Below, one piece after another: positions 11,886 through 27,878 of a stretch of DNA of 34,912 bases. The notes below the pieces were generated by a model. That model was not told the DNA's origin. It saw only the letters and a program-made list of their open reading frames with translations, and did no database searches. The position numbers were made by a program, and so were the translations under genes. How positions within the stretch are numbered: position 1 is the first letter of the stretch; the number at the start of each line of letters is the position of its first letter. Origin of the DNA: Candidatus Bathyarchaeota archaeon (GTDB taxonomy: Archaea; Thermoproteota; Bathyarchaeia; 40CM-2-53-6; RBG-13-38-9); NCBI GenBank assembly GCA_026015185.1, contig JAOZGX010000104.1:1-34912 (forward strand). Reading direction: 5' to 3'.

Positions 11886-12851
11886 CTATCTTTTAATGTC
11901 CATTGACTTGATCAATACCTCATCATTTATTTTCCCAAACCTGTAAGTCCTACCACTTTTCTTATTGTTGAGGTATATTACAGCCGGTGCAAAAAGATTG
12001 GTATCTATCTTATAGAAATCAAATCCAGCTGCTTTAAAGGTCTCATAGAATGGCTTACCATAATCTTTTGATGTTGATGAAGGCACTTTTGAGCCGATTT
12101 CCATAAGCTCTTCATCATTTTCTACATCGACAACATAAGAGGCAATCCCTCCGTAGCACAATGCATCATTTGTCCTTCCCATGCATATAGCTGAGTCCGA
12201 GTGTAGCGGAGCTATTGGGGCAATTCCACATCCATAGATTATTTTGTTAACATTGAAACCTACTTCATGTAGCTTGTGAATTCCCGTCTCAACTATTCTT
12301 CCAGATATCTGAACTGCGCCTACCATTGAGCAGGTTGGAGCAACAATCGTGTAAAGATTATTCAGTTCAACCTTACATTCATCAGCAATGTACTCCAAAA
12401 CCTCTATAGGCGGAATTTTATCTGTCTCTAAAAGTATTACTGCGTTTTCGGAGTTGTCCTCGTAACTTATCTCATCATAGAGTTTTTTTGGTTTCAAGGC
12501 CAATGCCCTTGCAGGACCAGATCCCATCGCAAAATACTTGTCTTTTTTAATGTTCCAGCCTGCAAATTGAGCGCCTAATGTTGCAATTGTTGGATAACTT
12601 GTTTCTACAAAAATTGATGGCAAATTTATATCATTATAATTATTATAGGAAATAGAAGTTTTAGCTAAACCACCCAAACTAGCTTCAGTTACGAAACACC
12701 CAGCGCTTTGACCTCCAATGGCTCTTATCCCTGCATCAATTATGGTGGCTTCAGATTCCTTTATCTGCTCAATTCTTAGTAATTCCTTATTCTGTAGAGC
12801 ATTTTCAATCAGCTTAAGTGCATTACTATTAACACTAATATCTTTGTTCAT
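11886..12851 (-). CDS. mch: Methenyl-tetrahydromethanopterin cyclohydrolase
   Basis: Mch interconverts N5-formyl-H4MPT and N5,N10-methenyl-H4MPT (EC 3.5.4.27) in the cytoplasm. The protein of about 321 residues has the full family pattern: AGIRAIGGQSAGCFVTEASLGG near the N-terminus, YFAMGSGPARALALKPK in the middle, and the signature CGIAPIAPLHSDSAICMGRTNDALCYGG toward the C-terminus. It is the last gene of the mtd-fwdDBAC-mch operon and starts 2 bases or so after fwdC ends. A GTG at 12860 would add three residues, but the AGGTG ribosome-binding sequence overlaps it and is properly spaced for ATG 12851, which I prefer. Length and motifs are normal. Confidence 0.95.
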   Translation of the reverse strand: MNKDISVNSNALKLIENALQNKELLRIEQIKESEATIIDAGIRAIGGQSAGCFVTEASLGGLAKTSISYNNYNDINLPSIFVETSYPTIATLGAQFAGWNIKKDKYFAMGSGPARALALKPKKLYDEISYEDNSENAVILLETDKIPPIEVLEYIADECKVELNNLYTIVAPTCSMVGAVQISGRIVETGIHKLHEVGFNVNKIIYGCGIAPIAPLHSDSAICMGRTNDALCYGGIASYVVDVENDEELMEIGSKVPSSTSKDYGKPFYETFKAAGFDFYKIDTNLFAPAVIYLNNKKSGRTYRFGKINDEVLIKSMDIKR

Positions 12852-12862
12852 AACTATCACAC

Positions 12863-17141: not shown

Positions 17142-17975
17142 TTATTTCGGTTTTTCCATTAACTTCCTCTTTTCAGCTCTAGTTCCATCTTTAGAGTGTG
17201 GATTCCTGAACACTGCATCGTTGCTTTTTTCAATTTCTCTAGCTTCGTCAGCGAGCTTTGCTGCTGTACGTATTAATTCATGTGCAGTGGCCACAGTAGC
17301 GGTGTATTGTTCCCAATCTTTTTGCTTGAAACAACCTTCAACTGAAAGTTTACCTACCTTCTCAGCCATTTCAAATGCAGCAGCAGCTTTTGCTTTTGCA
17401 TATGGATTTTGGAAGTTTGCGGCTGAAACACTGACCTCGCTATTTACAACAATTTTTGGTAAGTTTATAGTTTTACCCTTTTTGATCGACTCAACTAAAG
17501 CGTCTATCTCATTCATTAGAATATTAAAAACTCCTGTAATCGAAAGAACTCGGATAACATCTGCATTAAACAAGCTCATCTCTATAGTATCCAAGAATTC
17601 TCTTCGAGCGCCTATCATCGCATCAGATTCTACAATAATATATCCCATGCCAAGCTCTTCTATCTTCTCTAGAGCTCTCTTAGCTGGGCTATCAGATACA
17701 ACCACAGCGGGAATCCCCTTTTCTTTGAATTTTTCCATGGCCTTCATTGGTGCTGGTAGAGAAGCATTTGGAGTGGTTAATATTATTAAATTGGGTTTTG
17801 GTTCAACAACTTTCTCAGCTATATCACTCGCATGTTTAGGAGTTAACTTCGAGCCAGATCCAAATACTAGTACATCGATGTCTTCTCTCTCAGCTCTCTC
17901 ATCAAGAATGAATTCTATTAAAGGGGCTGAACCGATATTACCCACTTTTGCAAATCCTATGAGTACTTGTTCCAT
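17142..17975 (-). CDS. mtd: F420-dependent methylene-tetrahydromethanopterin dehydrogenase
   Basis: Mtd reduces methenyl-H4MPT to methylene-H4MPT with reduced coenzyme F420 (EC 1.5.98.1). The 277-residue protein matches the family end to end: GFAKVGNIGSAPLIEFILDERA at the start, a central GMGYIIVESDAMIGARREFLD block (the most conserved Mtd region), MSLFNADVIRVLSITG, and a C-terminal helical part with CFKQKDWEQYTATVATAHE. Its presence implies that the organism makes and reduces F420. It is the first gene of the minus-strand operon; GGGGATT lies 8 bases upstream of the ATG and a TATA box at 18013-18025. It is divergent from ftr, so both may share regulation. Confidence 0.95.
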   Translation of the reverse strand: MEQVLIGFAKVGNIGSAPLIEFILDERAEREDIDVLVFGSGSKLTPKHASDIAEKVVEPKPNLIILTTPNASLPAPMKAMEKFKEKGIPAVVVSDSPAKRALEKIEELGMGYIIVESDAMIGARREFLDTIEMSLFNADVIRVLSITGVFNILMNEIDALVESIKKGKTINLPKIVVNSEVSVSAANFQNPYAKAKAAAAFEMAEKVGKLSVEGCFKQKDWEQYTATVATAHELIRTAAKLADEAREIEKSNDAVFRNPHSKDGTRAEKRKLMEKPK

Positions 17976-18098: not shown

Positions 18099-18133
18099 AG
18101 CTTGATTCAATTGATTTGAGAGGAGAAAAAAGA

Positions 18134-19021
18134 ATGGCTGATGTGGAAATTGAAGATACTTTTGCTGAAGCTTTCCCAATGATTGCTGGAAGAGTTTTGA
18201 TCACAGCAGAAAACGATGATTGGGCAATGAATTCTGCTAGAAGTGCAACAGGTTTTGCTTCATCGATCATTATGTCCCCAGCAGAAGCGGGAATAGAAGG
18301 CCCAAAAGCTTCACCTAAGAAAACACCTGATGGCAGACCAGGTGTGTATATTCAAGTTTATCATAGAACTGGAAGAGAATTTAAAGTGCAGATGCTCACT
18401 CGTATTGGTCAATGTATTCTAACATGTCCCACAACAGCAGCTTTTGATGCAATTCCAAAGGCCAAGAAAAGGCTCAAATTGGGTAGAATGATCCGATATT
18501 TTGGAGATGGTTTCCAAAAAAAGGATCAAATGGCTGGCAGAGATATCTGGAGAATACCAGTCATGGATGGGGAATTCATAATTGAAGATAAATTCGGAGT
18601 TAAAAGAGCTGTTGCAGGAGGCAATTTATTGATAATGGCAAAAGATCAAATGATTGGTCTTGAAGCAGCTGAAAAAGCTGTACATGCAATTAAGGGTTTA
18701 GAAGGTGTTATCACGCCTTTTCCTGGAGGAATATGTAGATCAGGTTCAAAATTAGGTTCGATGAAGTATAAACTACTAGCCTCAACAAATCATCCTTTCT
18801 GTCCTATACTAAAGAATTCAATAGAAGATTCAATGTTGCCGGCTGGAACTGGTGCTGTTTATGAAATCGTAATAAACGGATTGACTTTAAATCTAGTTAA
18901 ACGTGCGATGAAGGTTGGTTTAAAGGCGGCAATGGACGTAGAAGGGGTAATAAAAATTACAGCAGTCAATTTCGGTGGTAAGCTAGGTCCGTTCAAAATA
19001 AATTTGAAAGAGCTTCTCTGA
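18134..19021 (+). CDS. ftr: Formylmethanofuran:tetrahydromethanopterin formyltransferase
   Basis: Ftr moves the formyl group from formylmethanofuran to N5 of H4MPT (EC 2.3.1.101), the step between Fwd and Mch. The 295-residue protein shows the standard start DVEIEDTFAEAFPMIAGRVLITA, the TGFASSIIMSPAEAGIEG block, RIGQCILTCPTTAAFD, and the C-terminal PAGTGAVYEIVINGLTL. The frame is open from TTG 18116, but GAGGAG at 18120-18125 is spaced correctly for ATG 18134, which also gives the usual N-terminus. It is the only methyl-branch gene here on the plus strand, divergent from mtd. Length is normal. Confidence 0.96.
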   Translation: MADVEIEDTFAEAFPMIAGRVLITAENDDWAMNSARSATGFASSIIMSPAEAGIEGPKASPKKTPDGRPGVYIQVYHRTGREFKVQMLTRIGQCILTCPTTAAFDAIPKAKKRLKLGRMIRYFGDGFQKKDQMAGRDIWRIPVMDGEFIIEDKFGVKRAVAGGNLLIMAKDQMIGLEAAEKAVHAIKGLEGVITPFPGGICRSGSKLGSMKYKLLASTNHPFCPILKNSIEDSMLPAGTGAVYEIVINGLTLNLVKRAMKVGLKAAMDVEGVIKITAVNFGGKLGPFKINLKELL

Positions 19022-21727: not shown

Positions 21728-22663
21728 ATGATAGGCGAGCAGGTATCAAATTGCTTACAACTTGCGATGCTTTTAGAAGTAAGTGCCTATCCAAAACCGG
21801 GTAACATTCATAGGACTGCTGATTTTAAAGATACAAAATATGAACATTTTCTCGCATCAACGATCGCAATTGGAGAACAATTTCGTTATGCTTCAAATAT
21901 TGGTGTTAAAATTTCTAAGAAAGAAATAGAATTAGAAAATATTGGAATCGGTAGAGCGATAAACAATACTGTAAGCGATATGTTATCATGGCAAAGTGGT
22001 GGCAACACTAGCTTAGGTGTAATTATACTTCTAATGCCTATTGCAATTTCGGCTGGTATGGTTTTTGGTCAGGGGGATTTTTCAAGAACAAAATTACGAA
22101 ATGCTTTGAGAGATCTTATCAAATCAACTACCTACGAAGATGCATTAGAAACTATTAAAGCAATAAGGAAGGCAAAGCCCGGAGGTTTAGGAAGGGTTGA
22201 ATCTTTCGATATTACCGATAATAACATAGAAAAACGGATTTTAAAAGAAAAACCTACCTTATTAGATCTATTCAAGATTTCTTCAGAATATGATTCGATA
22301 GCCAATGAGTGGGCAGATAATTATCCAATTTCATTTGACATAGGTTATCCATATTTCATAGATTGCATTAATAATAATCTCGATACAAATAGTGCAATAG
22401 TCCAGACTTTTATGCATATTTTGTCAGAATTCCCAGATAGTCTAGTTATAAGAAAACATGGTATAGAAAAAGCAAGAAAAGTCTCTGTCAATGCTAAAGA
22501 GATTCTCAATCTAGGTGGAATCACTTCAATTGAAGGAAGAGAGAGATTGAACCAATTGGATAAGGAATTTAGAAGTGAAAAACGCAAAATAAACCCTGGT
22601 ACTACAGCAGATCTTACAGCGTCTACTCTTTCCATAGCTATTTTGGATGGATTTCGTCCTTGA
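21728..22663 (+). CDS. CitG/MdcB-family triphosphoribosyl-dephospho-CoA synthase-like protein
   Basis: A 311-residue all-helical protein of the CitG family. Key motifs are AYPKPGNIHR (residues 21-29), matching the PKPG-x-V-x-R block of CitG, and QSGGNTSLGVIILLMPIA (89-106), matching the conserved N-T-x-x-G helix. CitG makes the prosthetic-group precursor of citrate lyase from ATP and dephospho-CoA, displacing adenine to form a ribosyl bond. No citrate lyase or malonate decarboxylase gene is here. The neighbours are a CofE-like ligase and an MptN-like ligase, so I infer a role in C1-carrier (methanopterin-type) cofactor synthesis, which also contains a phosphoribosyl unit. Its stop and the stop of the convergent CofE-like gene are 2 bases apart. 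The family call is firm; the role is inference. Confidence 0.78.
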   Translation: MIGEQVSNCLQLAMLLEVSAYPKPGNIHRTADFKDTKYEHFLASTIAIGEQFRYASNIGVKISKKEIELENIGIGRAINNTVSDMLSWQSGGNTSLGVIILLMPIAISAGMVFGQGDFSRTKLRNALRDLIKSTTYEDALETIKAIRKAKPGGLGRVESFDITDNNIEKRILKEKPTLLDLFKISSEYDSIANEWADNYPISFDIGYPYFIDCINNNLDTNSAIVQTFMHILSEFPDSLVIRKHGIEKARKVSVNAKEILNLGGITSIEGRERLNQLDKEFRSEKRKINPGTTADLTASTLSIAILDGFRP

Positions 22664-22665
22664 AT

Positions 22666-23514
22666 CTAACAATTTAATCTTCTTACAATCACCATAGGTC
22701 TATGAGTTATACTTTCTAGCATTTCCCAAGAAACCTCTGTAATTCCAACGTTAAAATGCCGAGACATGTCCCATACAGTTCTTCCAGCCCCAGATTTAAT
22801 CGCCTTATTAGCGATCGCTGCTATTTTCAAAGATATTTCTGGAGATAAATATTCGCATGACGCTGCAATTGGTGTGGATCTAGCTCTCAATTTTAGAAAT
22901 CTGCCAAGTGAATAAGCAAAAGGCCCTACATTCAATATTTTCTTTAAAGATGTAGGTCTTGAGGTTAAATGTAAGCCCTTAAAACTGAATGATTTATCGC
23001 TATCCATAATCATAACAATTAGGTTAATACCGATTTTTTCTTTTAAAAATGAGTATATCTCCTTTGCTATTAATTTTGGATCTTCTAATGGCAAAGATAC
23101 ATATTCATATGGCAGATTACTTCCATCTATACCGCCTTCAGAAAAATTTTTCAAAGCATAAATTGGTCCAGCATAAGATAATATGGTTTGTTTGTGAGTG
23201 GCTCCCTCTTTTATCGGATAATTTTTTAATCTCTCTAAATTGATTTGATTAATCCTTGCTAAAGGTCCAAGTAAATATCCCCAAATCTTTCTCATCCAGA
23301 AACCTGCCAGGAGTCGTGCCGATAACCCTGATGATATCTTTGCCTCGTTAATAATCCTGCCACGAGCAATTGAGATTGCTTTTTCTGATATTACGAGAAA
23401 ATCATTATCTTTTGCGTGTTTTCCTACAAACTCTAGAATCTGTTTTAGGTAATCCTCACCCGGCCTCCAGTATTTTGTTCTCATTGTAAAAGTTTTATAT
23501 TTGATTTTGGGCAT
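22666..23514 (-). CDS. CofE-like (coenzyme F420-0:glutamate ligase family) protein
   Basis: A 282-residue protein related to CofE, which adds gamma-linked glutamates to F420-0 using GTP. Matching blocks are DNDFLVISEKAISIARGRI (CofE: GD-x-L-V-V-x-S-K-x-V-S-x-x-EGR), EGGIDGSNLPYEYVSLPLEDP (CofE: AGIDxSN...LLPxDPD), and IVMIMDSDKSF (CofE: IISDTxGR). The region between is changed: an extra KIWGYLLGPLARINQINLERLKNYP segment replaces the usual ES-x-VVR part. It is therefore a diverged paralogue whose acceptor may not be F420. It is divergent from the MptN-like gene (119 bases apart) and convergent with the CitG-like gene. The ribosome-binding site is weak (GAAAGAG). The superfamily call is solid; substrate unknown. 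Confidence 0.75.
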   Translation of the reverse strand: MPKIKYKTFTMRTKYWRPGEDYLKQILEFVGKHAKDNDFLVISEKAISIARGRIINEAKISSGLSARLLAGFWMRKIWGYLLGPLARINQINLERLKNYPIKEGATHKQTILSYAGPIYALKNFSEGGIDGSNLPYEYVSLPLEDPKLIAKEIYSFLKEKIGINLIVMIMDSDKSFSFKGLHLTSRPTSLKKILNVGPFAYSLGRFLKLRARSTPIAASCEYLSPEISLKIAAIANKAIKSGAGRTVWDMSRHFNVGITEVSWEMLESITHRPMVIVRRLNC

Positions 23515-23633
23515 CTCTTTCGGAAAACCAACTTTAACATTTTAGTAATCATTAATAATTTCAAGATAATCTTTTAGAGTCTTAAATCAATCTTTTTTTA
23601 ATTCGATGATCTACAAGAGTATTTGAATCCAAT

Positions 23634-24512
23634 ATGAAGATCGGGATACTTACAAGAAATGAAGAATCTTGGTGCTCCTCACAATTAATTAAGGCTTTAA
23701 GAAAACGCAATGTGGAATCATTGTGTCTGAATTTCTCAAATTTAGTAGCTAAAGTCGGTGAACTACCTTATGTTTCTTTTAGGGAAATGAATTTGTTGGA
23801 TGAACTTACAGCATTGTTAGTCCGTCCAATTGGGCGTTGCTCAACTGAAGAGATAATTTTCCAAATGGATGTACTTCACAAACTGAATAGAGAAGGTTTG
23901 ATCATTATCAATCACCCTTCAGCTATAGAAAAAGCTGTTGATAAGTACTATACTCTCTCTTTGCTTAAGGATTCAGGGTTACCAGTTCCCAGAACCATTG
24001 CCACAAGAAGCATTAAGGATGCAATAAGAGCATTCAAGGATTTCGGTGGAGAAGCCATAATTAAGCCATTATTCGGTTCAAGAGGAATAGGTACTGCGAG
24101 AATATCGGATGCCGATGTTGCTGAAAGAGTTTTTAGAACGCTAAAATTTTATCGTCATGTAATATATATTCAAGAATACATTCCCCATGGAAATAAAGAT
24201 GTAAGAACATTTGTTGTAGGAAATGAAATAATTTCATCTATGCGAAGGATTTCAGATTCATGGAAAACAAACATAAGTAAAGGTGCTAAACCGACTAAGA
24301 TGAAAATTGAAGGGGATATTAAAGAAATGAGTCTAAGAGCTGCTAAGGCAATCGGATGTGAAATAGCAGGTGTGGATCTTATGGAGACAAATAAAGGCCT
24401 TTTCATACTTGAAGTTAATTCTCAACCAGGATGGAGAGGACTCCAATCCATTTCAGAAGTAAATATAGCTGGAAAGATCATTGATTATTTAATCCAGAAA
24501 TGTGACAGGTAA
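23634..24512 (+). CDS. mptN: RimK-type ATP-grasp ligase, likely tetrahydromethanopterin:alpha-L-glutamate ligase (MptN-like)
   Basis: A 292-residue ATP-grasp enzyme of the RimK group, which joins a carboxylate to an amino acid with ATP. Visible elements are the PSAIEKAVDKYYTLSLLKDSGLPVPRT entry region, the ATP-binding IIKPLFGSRGIGTARI loop (about residues 141-156), IQEYIP-x-x-NKDVRTFVVG, and the metal-binding end AGVDLMETNKGLFILEVNSQPGW. In methanogens the closest-named relatives are MptN, which adds glutamate to H4MPT to give tetrahydrosarcinapterin, and CofF, which caps F420 with glutamate. I favour MptN because the window is full of H4MPT enzymes, but CofF, LysX or RimK cannot be excluded. 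ATG 23634 is the natural start. A TATA-like CTTAAAT lies about 50 bases upstream. Confidence 0.65.
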   Translation: MKIGILTRNEESWCSSQLIKALRKRNVESLCLNFSNLVAKVGELPYVSFREMNLLDELTALLVRPIGRCSTEEIIFQMDVLHKLNREGLIIINHPSAIEKAVDKYYTLSLLKDSGLPVPRTIATRSIKDAIRAFKDFGGEAIIKPLFGSRGIGTARISDADVAERVFRTLKFYRHVIYIQEYIPHGNKDVRTFVVGNEIISSMRRISDSWKTNISKGAKPTKMKIEGDIKEMSLRAAKAIGCEIAGVDLMETNKGLFILEVNSQPGWRGLQSISEVNIAGKIIDYLIQKCDR

Positions 24513-25450: not shown

Positions 25451-25540
25451 ATGAAAGATTTTTTAGTAGCTGAAAAAAATAAGGGTTCTCAATATCGGAT
25501 CCTTGTGTTACGCGGTGGCGTTATTATTGGCCAGACGTAA
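25451..25540 (+). other. 29-codon leader ORF overlapping the cdhA start
   Basis: ATG 25451 opens a short frame (MKDFLVAEKNKGSQYRILVL..., stop TAA at 25538-25540) that runs through all candidate cdhA starts in a different frame. No good ribosome-binding site is visible before it. It may be untranslated chance, a coupling leader, or the original N-terminus of a frameshifted cdhA. Confidence that it is a real gene is low. Confidence 0.2.
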
Positions 25541-27878
25541 GAAAGTTGAATTAGACATAAAAGAATTGAATTCTAGCATCGGTGTAATGAAAGATCTAAA
25601 GCTTTCAATAGGCGGCGTCCTTGAGAAAGCTAAAAAAGAAGAGCTTGGGCCAACATCTTGCCCAAGTGTTACTGATCTTAGAGATTGGGATTTTAAGCTT
25701 CTCCAAAGATATAAGCCCTTCTATATGCCTTTCTGCGACCTTTGCTGCCTTTGTACTTTTGGCAAATGTGACTTAAGCGATGGTAAGAGAGGAGCTTGTG
25801 GACTTGATATGGAGGCCCAACAATCTAGGATCGTATTAATTGCAAGCTGTATAGGTGCTGCCACACACATAAGCCACGCTAGGCATTTAATTGATGAATT
25901 AATTCAGAAATATGGTCGGAAAAATCCAATTGATGTTGGAGGTACAAATGTGGATCTGAATGCTCCTGTAACTCAATTAATAACAGGAATTGAACCTAAA
26001 ACCTTGAGCGACTTGGAAGATATTTTGGACTATCTTGAAACAGAAATTAACCACTTGCTTTCAGCAACTCATACTGGACAAGAAGGTAGCAATATTGATT
26101 TCGAGTCAAAAGTGCTGCATGCAGGAATGATGGATCAAGCCGGATTGGAGATTGCAGATATTGCACAGATTTCAACTTATGGTTTTCCAAAAGGAGATCC
26201 TGAAGCTCCACTTGCAGACATAGGTCTTGGAGTGGTTAATGCGACCAAACCTGTGATCATGATAGTTGGCCATAATGTAACTCCTTCGATTGGAATTATA
26301 GATTATCTTACAGAAAACAACCTCTATGATGAAGTTGAGGTTTGTGGTCTATGTTGTACTTCTCATGATATCACAAGATATAGCCCAAAAGCAAAAATTG
26401 TTGGGCCTATTTCATGGCAACTTCGATTTATTCGAAGTGGAATTCCTGATGTAATTGTAGTAGATGAGCAGTGTATTCGAGCCGACTCATTAGATGAAGC
26501 TAAGAAGATAGGGGCTCCTATAATTGCATCAAGCCCAAAGAACTGCCTAGGCTTAAAGGATAGAACTAAGGATTCCGTGGATGAAATTGTTGCTGATTTG
26601 GTGAATGGGAAAGTATCAGGTGTGTTAATTCTAGATTCAGATAAAGTAGGGGAAGTAGCCGTACGAACGGTAATGGAGATCGCTCCAAAAAGAAGTAAAT
26701 TCAAAACCATTCCTAATTTGGATGAATTGATTAAAAATGCAAAGAAATGTACGCAGTGTGATGAATGCAGAAGAGCTTGTCCAAATGATATGAAAATTTC
26801 AGAGGCAATAAACGATGCTGCAAAAGGTGAACTAACTAAATTAATAAAACTCTATGAGGAATGCATCGGTTGTTCGCGTTGCGAAAATGCTTGCCCTAAC
26901 GAGCTACCAATCCACAGCTTTATTGTGAAAGCAGCTGAGAAAAAATTGAAAGAAGAAAAGTTCAAGATACGTACGGGCAGGGGAGCCATACAAGATGTGG
27001 AGATAAGAAGGGTCGGAGGACCAATTGTTCTTGGAGAGATACCCGGTGTTGTAGCTCATGTTGGATGTGCTAACTACCCGAAAGGTGGAAAAGAAGTAGC
27101 TGAGATGATAGAAGAATTTGCAAAGCGTAGGTATATAGTAGTTACCTCTGGATGTGCTGCTATGTCAGCGGCTATGCATAAGAATGAAGATGGTAAGACG
27201 CCTTATGAAAACTTTTCAGGTGATTTCGATGCTGGTGGTTTATTAAATGTCGGCTCATGCGTATCTAATGCTCACATAGCCGGTGCTGCCATTAAGATTG
27301 CAAGTATTTTTGCAAAACGGAAATTAAATGCAAATTATGAAGAAATTGCTGACTATGTACTTAATCGTGTTGGAGCAGTTGGCATCTCATGGGGAGCCAT
27401 GTCCCAAAAAGCAGCCTCAATAGCGAGTGGGTTTTGGAGGCTTGGCGTTCCAGTCATAGTTGGTCCCCATGGTTCTAAATACAGGAGAATGTTACTTGGA
27501 AGAAAGGACAAAGAAGAAGATTGGTATGTCTATGATGCTCGCACAGGAGAGCGTGTTTATGTAGGTCCAGCACCGGAGCATCTGTTTTATGCAGCTGAGA
27601 CAAAAGAAGAAGCTATGGTAATGACAGCCAAACTATGTATGCGCCCAAATGATACGACCAAGGGTAGGGCAATTAAACTTTCTAATTATATAGATCTTCA
27701 CAAAAGATACTACGGAAAACTCCCTGACGACATACACCTTTACGTACGTCGATTATCAGATGTACCGATTACTATGAAAGATGAAATTGTTCGTATCCTT
27801 GATAAAAAAGACTGGAAAGAGAAAATAATTCCAGATCCAACATTATTACCAAGAATGATTAGAAAAAAAGGAAATTAA
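25503..27878 (+). CDS. cdhA: CODH/ACS complex alpha subunit (carbon monoxide dehydrogenase)
   Basis: CdhA reduces CO2 to CO, or the reverse, at a Ni-Fe-S C-cluster. The protein of about 790 residues has the N-terminal cluster FCDLCCLCTFGKCDL, which holds the B and D clusters, then HIDE-like helical parts with ESKVLHAGMMDQAG and VCGLCCTSHDITRY. Two ferredoxin-type motifs (CTQCDECRRACPND and CIGCSRCENACPNE) are typical of the archaeal form only. C-cluster cysteines appear in VGCANYPKGG, TSGCAAMSAA and NVGSCVSNAH. No ATG start is available. Candidates are TTG 25503, GTG 25515 and TTG 25527; GGTGG lies 8 bases before the last, which I judge most likely and which removes an odd hydrophobic tip. 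cdhB follows one base after the stop. Confidence 0.95.
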   Translation: MCYAVALLLARRKKVELDIKELNSSIGVMKDLKLSIGGVLEKAKKEELGPTSCPSVTDLRDWDFKLLQRYKPFYMPFCDLCCLCTFGKCDLSDGKRGACGLDMEAQQSRIVLIASCIGAATHISHARHLIDELIQKYGRKNPIDVGGTNVDLNAPVTQLITGIEPKTLSDLEDILDYLETEINHLLSATHTGQEGSNIDFESKVLHAGMMDQAGLEIADIAQISTYGFPKGDPEAPLADIGLGVVNATKPVIMIVGHNVTPSIGIIDYLTENNLYDEVEVCGLCCTSHDITRYSPKAKIVGPISWQLRFIRSGIPDVIVVDEQCIRADSLDEAKKIGAPIIASSPKNCLGLKDRTKDSVDEIVADLVNGKVSGVLILDSDKVGEVAVRTVMEIAPKRSKFKTIPNLDELIKNAKKCTQCDECRRACPNDMKISEAINDAAKGELTKLIKLYEECIGCSRCENACPNELPIHSFIVKAAEKKLKEEKFKIRTGRGAIQDVEIRRVGGPIVLGEIPGVVAHVGCANYPKGGKEVAEMIEEFAKRRYIVVTSGCAAMSAAMHKNEDGKTPYENFSGDFDAGGLLNVGSCVSNAHIAGAAIKIASIFAKRKLNANYEEIADYVLNRVGAVGISWGAMSQKAASIASGFWRLGVPVIVGPHGSKYRRMLLGRKDKEEDWYVYDARTGERVYVGPAPEHLFYAAETKEEAMVMTAKLCMRPNDTTKGRAIKLSNYIDLHKRYYGKLPDDIHLYVRRLSDVPITMKDEIVRILDKKDWKEKIIPDPTLLPRMIRKKGN

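Follow-up and report, generated by a model that had tools for sequence, protein, structure and literature searches.

A CitG-family protein encoded at an archaeal C1 locus is a candidate enzyme of tetrahydromethanopterin synthesis

What could a protein of the CitG family contribute at an archaeal locus for C1 metabolism? The question is raised by contig JAOZGX010000104.1 of a Candidatus Bathyarchaeota archaeon, the entire 34,912 nt of which are referred to here as the window and the genome of which (G000; 1.8 Mb, 96.6% complete) was compared with sampled genomes, loci and families, numbered with the prefixes G, L and f. Between genes of the methyl branch and genes for carbon monoxide dehydrogenase/acetyl-CoA synthase (CODH/ACS), the window encodes a CitG-like protein, a paralogue of the F420-0:L-glutamate ligase CofE, a RimK-type ligase resembling MptN and a putative nucleotidyltransferase (NTase). 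We hold with moderate confidence that the CitG-like protein is a dedicated enzyme in the synthesis of coenzymes of the tetrahydromethanopterin (H4MPT) type, its most likely reaction being the transfer of a ribosyl (tri)phosphate to ribitol, with the three neighbouring proteins acting in the steps proposed below.

The Pfam model CitG (PF01874) covers nearly the full length of the protein (E 6e-78, 262.8 bits against a cut-off of 27), and automatic annotation in bacterial clusters calls such proteins triphosphoribosyl-dephospho-CoA synthases. Both points would suit a true synthase of this kind that serves an unrecognized acyl carrier protein, a reading that we nevertheless regard as very improbable, because the protein stays far below the NCBIfam equivalog cut-offs for CitG (71.4 versus 272.3 bits) and MdcB (72.6 versus 282.35 bits), because its genome gave no match to the CitF profile, and because its relatives are linked to H4MPT genes and stand apart from the classical enzymes in phylogeny and motifs. 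A tree was calculated from 75 of 119 available sequences, namely 62 archaeal ones (thinned from 106), the window protein, one from Natrinema, five from bacterial H4MPT clusters and six classical CitG/MdcB proteins. The six classical sequences were split from the 69 others with a support of 100 in the SH-like approximate likelihood ratio test (SH-aLRT), and the five bacterial proteins nested on the archaeal side. The motifs HxDM, NT[HQ][KR]G and PGG occur in all six classical rows and RGEA in five of them, and none of the four is found in any of the 69 others, the window row included, which have N[TV]x[LFM]G (66/69) and PG[TSAC]xAD (68/69) instead. A core of eight residues is invariant in both subfamilies (K40, G42, N106, G110, D219, G271, A274 and D275, numbered after the first row of alignment A5). 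Judged by these sequence features, the protein is not the classical CitG enzyme and belongs to a branch of its own within the family. A role as a helper of citrate lyase was rejected on the equivalog scores, the missing CitF and the missing motifs. The preliminary description of the locus had already remarked that a target of classical CitG is not present here, and the CitF search in G000 bears this out; a single weak partial CitF match was obtained in 121 Thermoproteota genomes, and malonate decarboxylase was not searched for. In bacterial H4MPT clusters and in many archaea, the label triphosphoribosyl-dephospho-CoA synthase is probably mistaken.

A structure of this protein type has been solved. 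PDB entry 3H9P ("putative triphosphoribosyl-dephospho-CoA synthase"), deposited without an assigned function, matches the CitG-like protein with E 8.3e-24, shares 24-37% identity with 12 other rows of alignment A1 and is a member of the archaeal type. The nearest of the loci fetched are from Archaeoglobus, and we take the source to be Archaeoglobus fulgidus. The 3H9P chain matches the window protein only from residue 29 onward and lacks the conserved KPGN stretch, and its close homologue L045:9887-10744 extends upstream with a conserved K[PA]GN stretch, such that the 3H9P construct may start too late.

The distribution of the CitG-like gene follows that of MptG. In the 121 Thermoproteota genomes, to which the following genome counts refer unless another set is named, CitG is found in 55 and MptG in 49 (E <= 1e-20); 46 genomes have both, 9 CitG only, 3 MptG only and 63 neither. 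The sample comprises the phylum of G000, which is taken to be Thermoproteota because named loci of Thermoproteota and Bathyarchaeota stand among its relatives in the tree. Fisher's test gives p 1e-20 without correction for kinship, which overstates the association because the genomes are related; counted by the majority in each family (107 genomes with a family given), the numbers are 16/3/1/14 with p 1e-5. The limit for MptG was set after the list had been viewed, and partial matches that were weaker (best 1.4e-7), present in 38 genomes, were counted as other proteins of the GHMP family. All nine CitG-only genomes have Ftr, so that each of the 55 CitG genomes has MptG or Ftr. These nine (G001, G049, G056, G105, G111, G015, G023, G031 and G079) combine CitG, NTase and Ftr without MptG at the limit chosen and may possess a diverged or different route to ribofuranosylaminobenzene phosphate (RFAP). 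Among 196 genomes from the phylum of a Methanolobus, with a limit of 1e-18, CitG occurs in 188 and MptG in 189 (184 both, 4 CitG only, 5 MptG only, 3 neither). Four of 14 named control genomes have MptG (M. jannaschii, H. volcanii, S. acidocaldarius and M. acetivorans), and CitG is found in the same four and in E. coli. On plasmids, MptG accompanies CitG of the Orf7 type (see below) in 35 of 35 records; five more records had MptG only in that comparison, one of which, from Natrinema, has CitG according to a separate look. The preliminary description had named a CitG-like gene that occurs with citrate lyase and without H4MPT as a counterexample; no such case was seen, and the Ftr-less archaea that carry the CitG-like gene have MptG.

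Gene neighbourhoods point in the same direction. G000 contains a single CitG; its MptG lies on another contig, in a run of genes for a dihydropteroate synthase (DHPS)-like protein, MptG and DUF447. In three Bathyarchaeota loci (L106, L110 and L116) these genes are joined in a block DHPS-like-MptG-DUF447-NTase-CitG, and CitG is linked to other genes of H4MPT synthesis in L112 as well. Of 77 named archaeal loci (80 minus L063, L117 and L122, for which ORF calling gave no CitG), 58 have DUF447 no more than 300 bp away from CitG, and the two adjoin in all eight loci of family f15. All five proteobacterial clusters read (Azospirillum, Phyllobacterium, Thiodictyon, Aquabacterium and Paraburkholderia) have the order mptG-mtdB-ATP-grasp-mch-RimK-CitG, followed by fae in four of them; the ATP-grasp protein is annotated as hypothetical in Paraburkholderia. 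The published order of a bacterial H4MPT cluster, as given in an excerpt of PMC3615186, is mch-orf5-orf7-fae, from which we infer that Orf7 is a CitG of this type. According to an excerpt of PMC8141765, in which orf7 is not named, every gene of the bacterial cluster is needed for growth on methanol. The earlier placement of the CitG-like gene in H4MPT-type pterin synthesis is thus supported by its co-occurrence with MptG, its neighbourhoods and its separate branch in the tree. In Methanolobus, the gene just upstream of CitG (L114:8694-9836) encodes methanogenesis marker 9, a Dus-like protein, and genes for 380-390 residues occupy the same spot in related Methanosarcinales loci.

The preliminary description had also taken the CitG-like, CofE-like and MptN-like genes for a conserved unit, and here its expectation held for one pair only. 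A gene for an MptN-like ligase lies directly beside the CitG-like gene in all five bacterial clusters and on one Baldrarchaeota contig; the CofE-like gene is next to CitG only in the window and in G042 and shares a block with it in L110. The exact trio was seen in the window alone, L110 has all three genes within about 15 kb, and L009/G042 has just the CitG and CofE-like genes, so that a three-gene unit was rejected.

We know of no enzyme assigned to the addition of the second ribose or of the phosphodiester-linked acid of methanopterin. The former is probably made by the CitG-like protein. What the comparisons establish is co-occurrence, linkage, subfamily and fold, whereas the substrates, the donor and the order of steps are inferred, as follows. 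A nucleotide, probably the ATP that CitG uses, would donate a ribosyl (tri)phosphate, which the CitG-like protein would transfer onto the 5-hydroxyl of the ribitol in a pterin-arylamine-ribitol intermediate, thereby providing the alpha-ribofuranosyl 5-phosphate part of the methanopterin arm. Inversion at a beta-N-glycoside such as ATP leads to an alpha product, and the ribosyl linkage of methanopterin is indeed alpha, so that inverting transfer from ATP would fit. If the triphosphate were retained, it could serve as the activating group for the phosphodiester to 2-hydroxyglutarate. In Thermoproteota, the adjoining NTase would use this activated phosphate and join the terminal hydroxy acid by a phosphodiester, much as MdcG, in the service of malonate decarboxylase, acts on what MdcB has made. 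The MptN-like ligase would add glutamate to the terminal acid or to methanofuran, and the CofE-like paralogue gamma-linked glutamates to methanofuran. The literature searches made gave no paper linking CitG or triphosphoribosyl groups to methanopterin; an earlier assignment in key older papers is possible.

The NTase gene adjoins the CitG-like gene and was omitted from the earlier gene list, which was otherwise correct for the three genes it named. Its family, aligned as A3, occurs in 57 Thermoproteota genomes, 52 of which have CitG (3 CitG only, 5 NTase only, 61 neither). In at least 20 genomes, which belong to nine families, no more than 1.5 kb separates it from CitG, and these include all seven genomes of family f22, which we guess to be Sulfolobaceae. 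The predicted structure (mean predicted local distance difference test score, pLDDT, 86.7) combines a palm of the Pol-beta type (residues ~113-234) with a C-terminal oligonucleotide/oligosaccharide-binding (OB) fold (~245-345), and the nucleotidyltransferase motif GS...SDxD is invariant across A3 (G143, S144, S155, D156 and D158). One title listed among the references of PMC5534430 counts MdcG as kin to the nucleotidyltransferases, its GS...SDxD motif aligns with that of the NTase, and mdcG adjoins mdcB in two of the classical operons read. L110 has a further NTase copy beside its MptN-like gene, an arrangement that would suit a step between those of CitG and MptN. Neither the phosphate nor the hydroxyglutarate is part of bacterial dephospho-H4MPT (dH4MPT), as stated in an excerpt of PMC8141765, and the annotations of the five bacterial H4MPT stretches read include no NTase of the A3 family. 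By analogy with MdcG, we propose the NTase as the phosphodiester-forming partner of the CitG-like protein. Side-by-side arrays of divergent paralogues of the NTase family are found in genomes of the window's class (e.g., L143-L146), with up to five matches per genome.

Several observations weigh against this scheme, and the first of them concerns the step itself. The co-occurrence of CitG and MptG marks a pathway and not a step, and any step without an assigned enzyme, such as a dephosphorylation or a reduction, would fit equally. Earlier work with cell extracts reportedly proposed phosphoribosyl pyrophosphate (PRPP) as the donor for the ribose. The CitG-like protein might accordingly act in methanopterin synthesis at another unassigned step, or use PRPP in place of ATP and hence form no triphosphate intermediate. 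Linkage and co-occurrence suit any step of the pathway, and the replacement of four classical motifs may have changed the use of donor or acceptor; on the other hand, the one chemistry that we know of in the CitG family is ribosyl transfer to a hydroxyl, which is what the pathway needs, and the invariant core has been kept across both subfamilies. We regard such an alternative as doubtful, yet deserving of serious thought.

Further difficulties for the assignment of the CitG-like protein lie in its distribution. Six of the 28 genomes with Ftr lack CitG, and the Baldrarchaeota genome with the MptN-CitG pair gave no MptG match. Haloarchaea carry CitG, DUF447 and MptG and are described in an excerpt of PMC8305020 as folate users; the same source considers HVO_2628, a homologue of MptG, probably not to be the catalyst of the first methanopterin step. 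In Ftr-less archaea such as haloarchaea and Sulfolobales, CitG, MptG, DUF447 and NTase might produce a ribosylated pterin or arylamine other than the C1 carrier, which would extend their role beyond H4MPT. The absence of Ftr from 33 of the 55 Thermoproteota genomes with CitG and the presence of the gene set in haloarchaea are in keeping with such a wider role, whereas the modified folate reported for Sulfolobus, sulfopterin (excerpt of PMC3697235), would account for that part with no need of a new function. We consider the wider role improbable. On a plasmid of Natrinema thermotolerans (L042:8977-10421), the CitG-like gene is directly followed by DUF447, and the MptG match lies elsewhere on the plasmid.

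Doubts also attach to the NTase. Beyond the motif, its resemblance to MdcG is weak (Pfam MdcG matches two rows out of 12, with a best E of 0.071; hhalign probability 37%), which makes the relation one of analogy and not of membership. Neither MdcG nor CitX is among the structure-search matches listed, which excludes nothing. The protein contains an OB fold, and many of the proteins closest to it in structure searches bind nucleic acids. Outside Thermoproteota, the small profile used found an NTase on one Euryarchaeota contig (L071) among the 77 loci, and Euryarchaeota at large were not searched. The NTase could be an enzyme acting on RNA or DNA, with its linkage to CitG in Thermoproteota being incidental. 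The OB fold beside the palm, with Z scores of 7-8 to OB folds of MCM and of the single-stranded DNA-binding protein (SSB) type, and the several paralogues per genome speak for such a function; the presence of CitG in 52 of the 57 genomes, adjacency in nine families including every f22 genome, and the second copy beside the MptN-like gene in L110 speak against it. For the NTase taken alone, this is a substantial possibility, if the lesser one.

The CofE-like protein has the F420_ligase domain (PF01996, E 9.7e-15) and reaches 33.2 bits with the CofE equivalog TIGR01916, which has a cut-off of 180.65. A PDB sequence search with it gave no match at E 1. The top five Foldseek matches of its model (m54890600da76) are all CofE, with E values from 3.9e-10 (2phn) to 1.1e-9. 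A canonical CofE (285.6 bits) is encoded on a third contig of G000 (C75) and is also present in each of the 27 genomes with the CofE-like gene, and a function of the paralogue as an F420 enzyme was rejected as unlikely. The gene follows Ftr and not CitG: Ftr occurs in 28 genomes, 26 of them shared with the CofE-like gene (Fisher p 5e-23, uncorrected for kinship), the two lie about 0.5 kb apart in G096, G102, G114 and G120, and 33 genomes have CitG without a CofE-like gene. This pattern makes methanofuran the likely target, in place of the H4MPT or F420 named in the preliminary description. Excerpts of PMC8141765 state that archaeal methanofuran has gamma-linked glutamates only and that, in 2021, the enzymes for its glutamate chain were unidentified. 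Going by fold and distribution, the CofE-like protein is probably a gamma-glutamyl ligase for the methanofuran side chain. G010, G093 and G099 have Ftr and the CofE-like gene and none of CitG, MptG and NTase; possible reasons are a different pterin carrier or incomplete bins. The CofE-like match G075:C60:1547-2386 contains one in-frame TGA.

For the MptN-like ligase, the best NCBIfam model is MptN_Meth (NF040720), at 279.8 bits where the cut-off is 350, and identity to the bacterial Orf5-type ligase of L039 is 31%. MptN and Orf5, also named MyfB, act on different coenzymes, and MyfB lengthens methylofuran (excerpts of PMC8141765). Since this bacterial relative, encoded beside CitG, acts on methylofuran, the target of the window protein may, as far as its sequence goes, be either H4MPT or methanofuran.

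A candidate gene can thus be named for each of three steps, the second ribose, the phosphodiester-linked acid and the methanofuran glutamate chain, and the CitG type is also present in genetically tractable bacteria. A bolder picture, which we offer as speculative and would not expect to hold in all its parts, is that the methanopterin arm follows the two-enzyme logic of the prosthetic group of citrate lyase and malonate decarboxylase: an enzyme of the CitG type would add triphosphoribosyl in alpha linkage from ATP, which would replace the assumed PRPP, and an NTase-type partner would make the phosphodiester; methylotrophic bacteria would stop early and do without the second enzyme, haloarchaea would make an unreported methanopterin-like compound, and the CofE paralogue would build the gamma-glutamyl tail of methanofuran.

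The features of the window are compiled in the table. The CitG-like, CofE-like and MptN-like genes all have open reading frames (ORFs), and these, their Pfam domains and their flanks agree with the position described earlier, with Mch, Fwd subunits, Mtd and Ftr upstream and CODH/ACS downstream; read from its sequence, the window holds a complete archaeal C1 locus. The Ftr domain is matched three times in G000, each time on a different contig (C104:18137, C70:44850 and C67:2064).

Table. Coordinates of the cofactor-type genes and of their C1 context in the window
Feature	Coordinates	Strand	Evidence
CitG-family protein, 311 aa, H4MPT-type subfamily	21728..22663	+	PF01874 262.8 bits, co-occurrence, neighbourhoods, tree, motifs
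NTase-domain protein, 345 aa	20586..21623	-	NTP_transf_2 E 9e-5; A3 family; model pLDDT 86.7
CofE-fold protein, 282 aa, CofE paralogue	22666..23514	-	PF01996 E 9.7e-15; Foldseek match to 2phn
RimK-type ATP-grasp alpha-L-glutamate ligase, nearest MptN	23634..24512	+	PF08443 E 1.1e-33; MptN_Meth 279.8 bits
Ftr, formylmethanofuran:H4MPT formyltransferase (context)	18116..19021	+	TIGR03119 410 bits, above cut-off
Mtd, F420-dependent methylene-H4MPT dehydrogenase (context)	17142..17975	-	NF002162 388 bits, above cut-off
Mch, methenyl-H4MPT cyclohydrolase (context)	11886..12860	-	PF02289 E 3.9e-120
CdhA, CODH/ACS alpha subunit (context)	25503..27878	+	TIGR00314 1184.9 bits

How do these proteins compare with known systems? 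The CofE-like protein shares the fold of CofE and has kept a stretch of the GID-SN type, but is only about 23% identical to the canonical enzyme and has an inserted WMRxxWG stretch and an extra C-terminal region. The MptN-like ligase, measured against the alpha-glutamate ligases MptN and MyfB (Orf5), has MptN as its best model, below the cut-off of that model, and resembles the Orf5 type at the identity given above. The NTase shares with MdcG, the phosphoribosyl-dephospho-CoA transferase, a partner gene of the CitG family and the GS...SDxD motif, and differs from it in the added OB fold and in the weak profile similarity. Bacterial Orf7 occupies the same place as the CitG-like protein, with mch, an MptN-like Orf5 and fae as neighbours, an identity drawn from gene order; the product of the bacterial system lacks the phosphate and hydroxyglutarate (excerpt of PMC8141765). 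With CitG and MdcB, the ATP:dephospho-CoA triphosphoribosyl transferases, the window type has in common the Pfam domain, the invariant core residues and, in Thermoproteota, a partner gene of the nucleotidyltransferase type, whereas it is set apart by its own branch, by the replacement of HxDM, NT[HQ][KR]G, RGEA and PGG, by a genome without citrate lyase and by its linkage to the genes of H4MPT.

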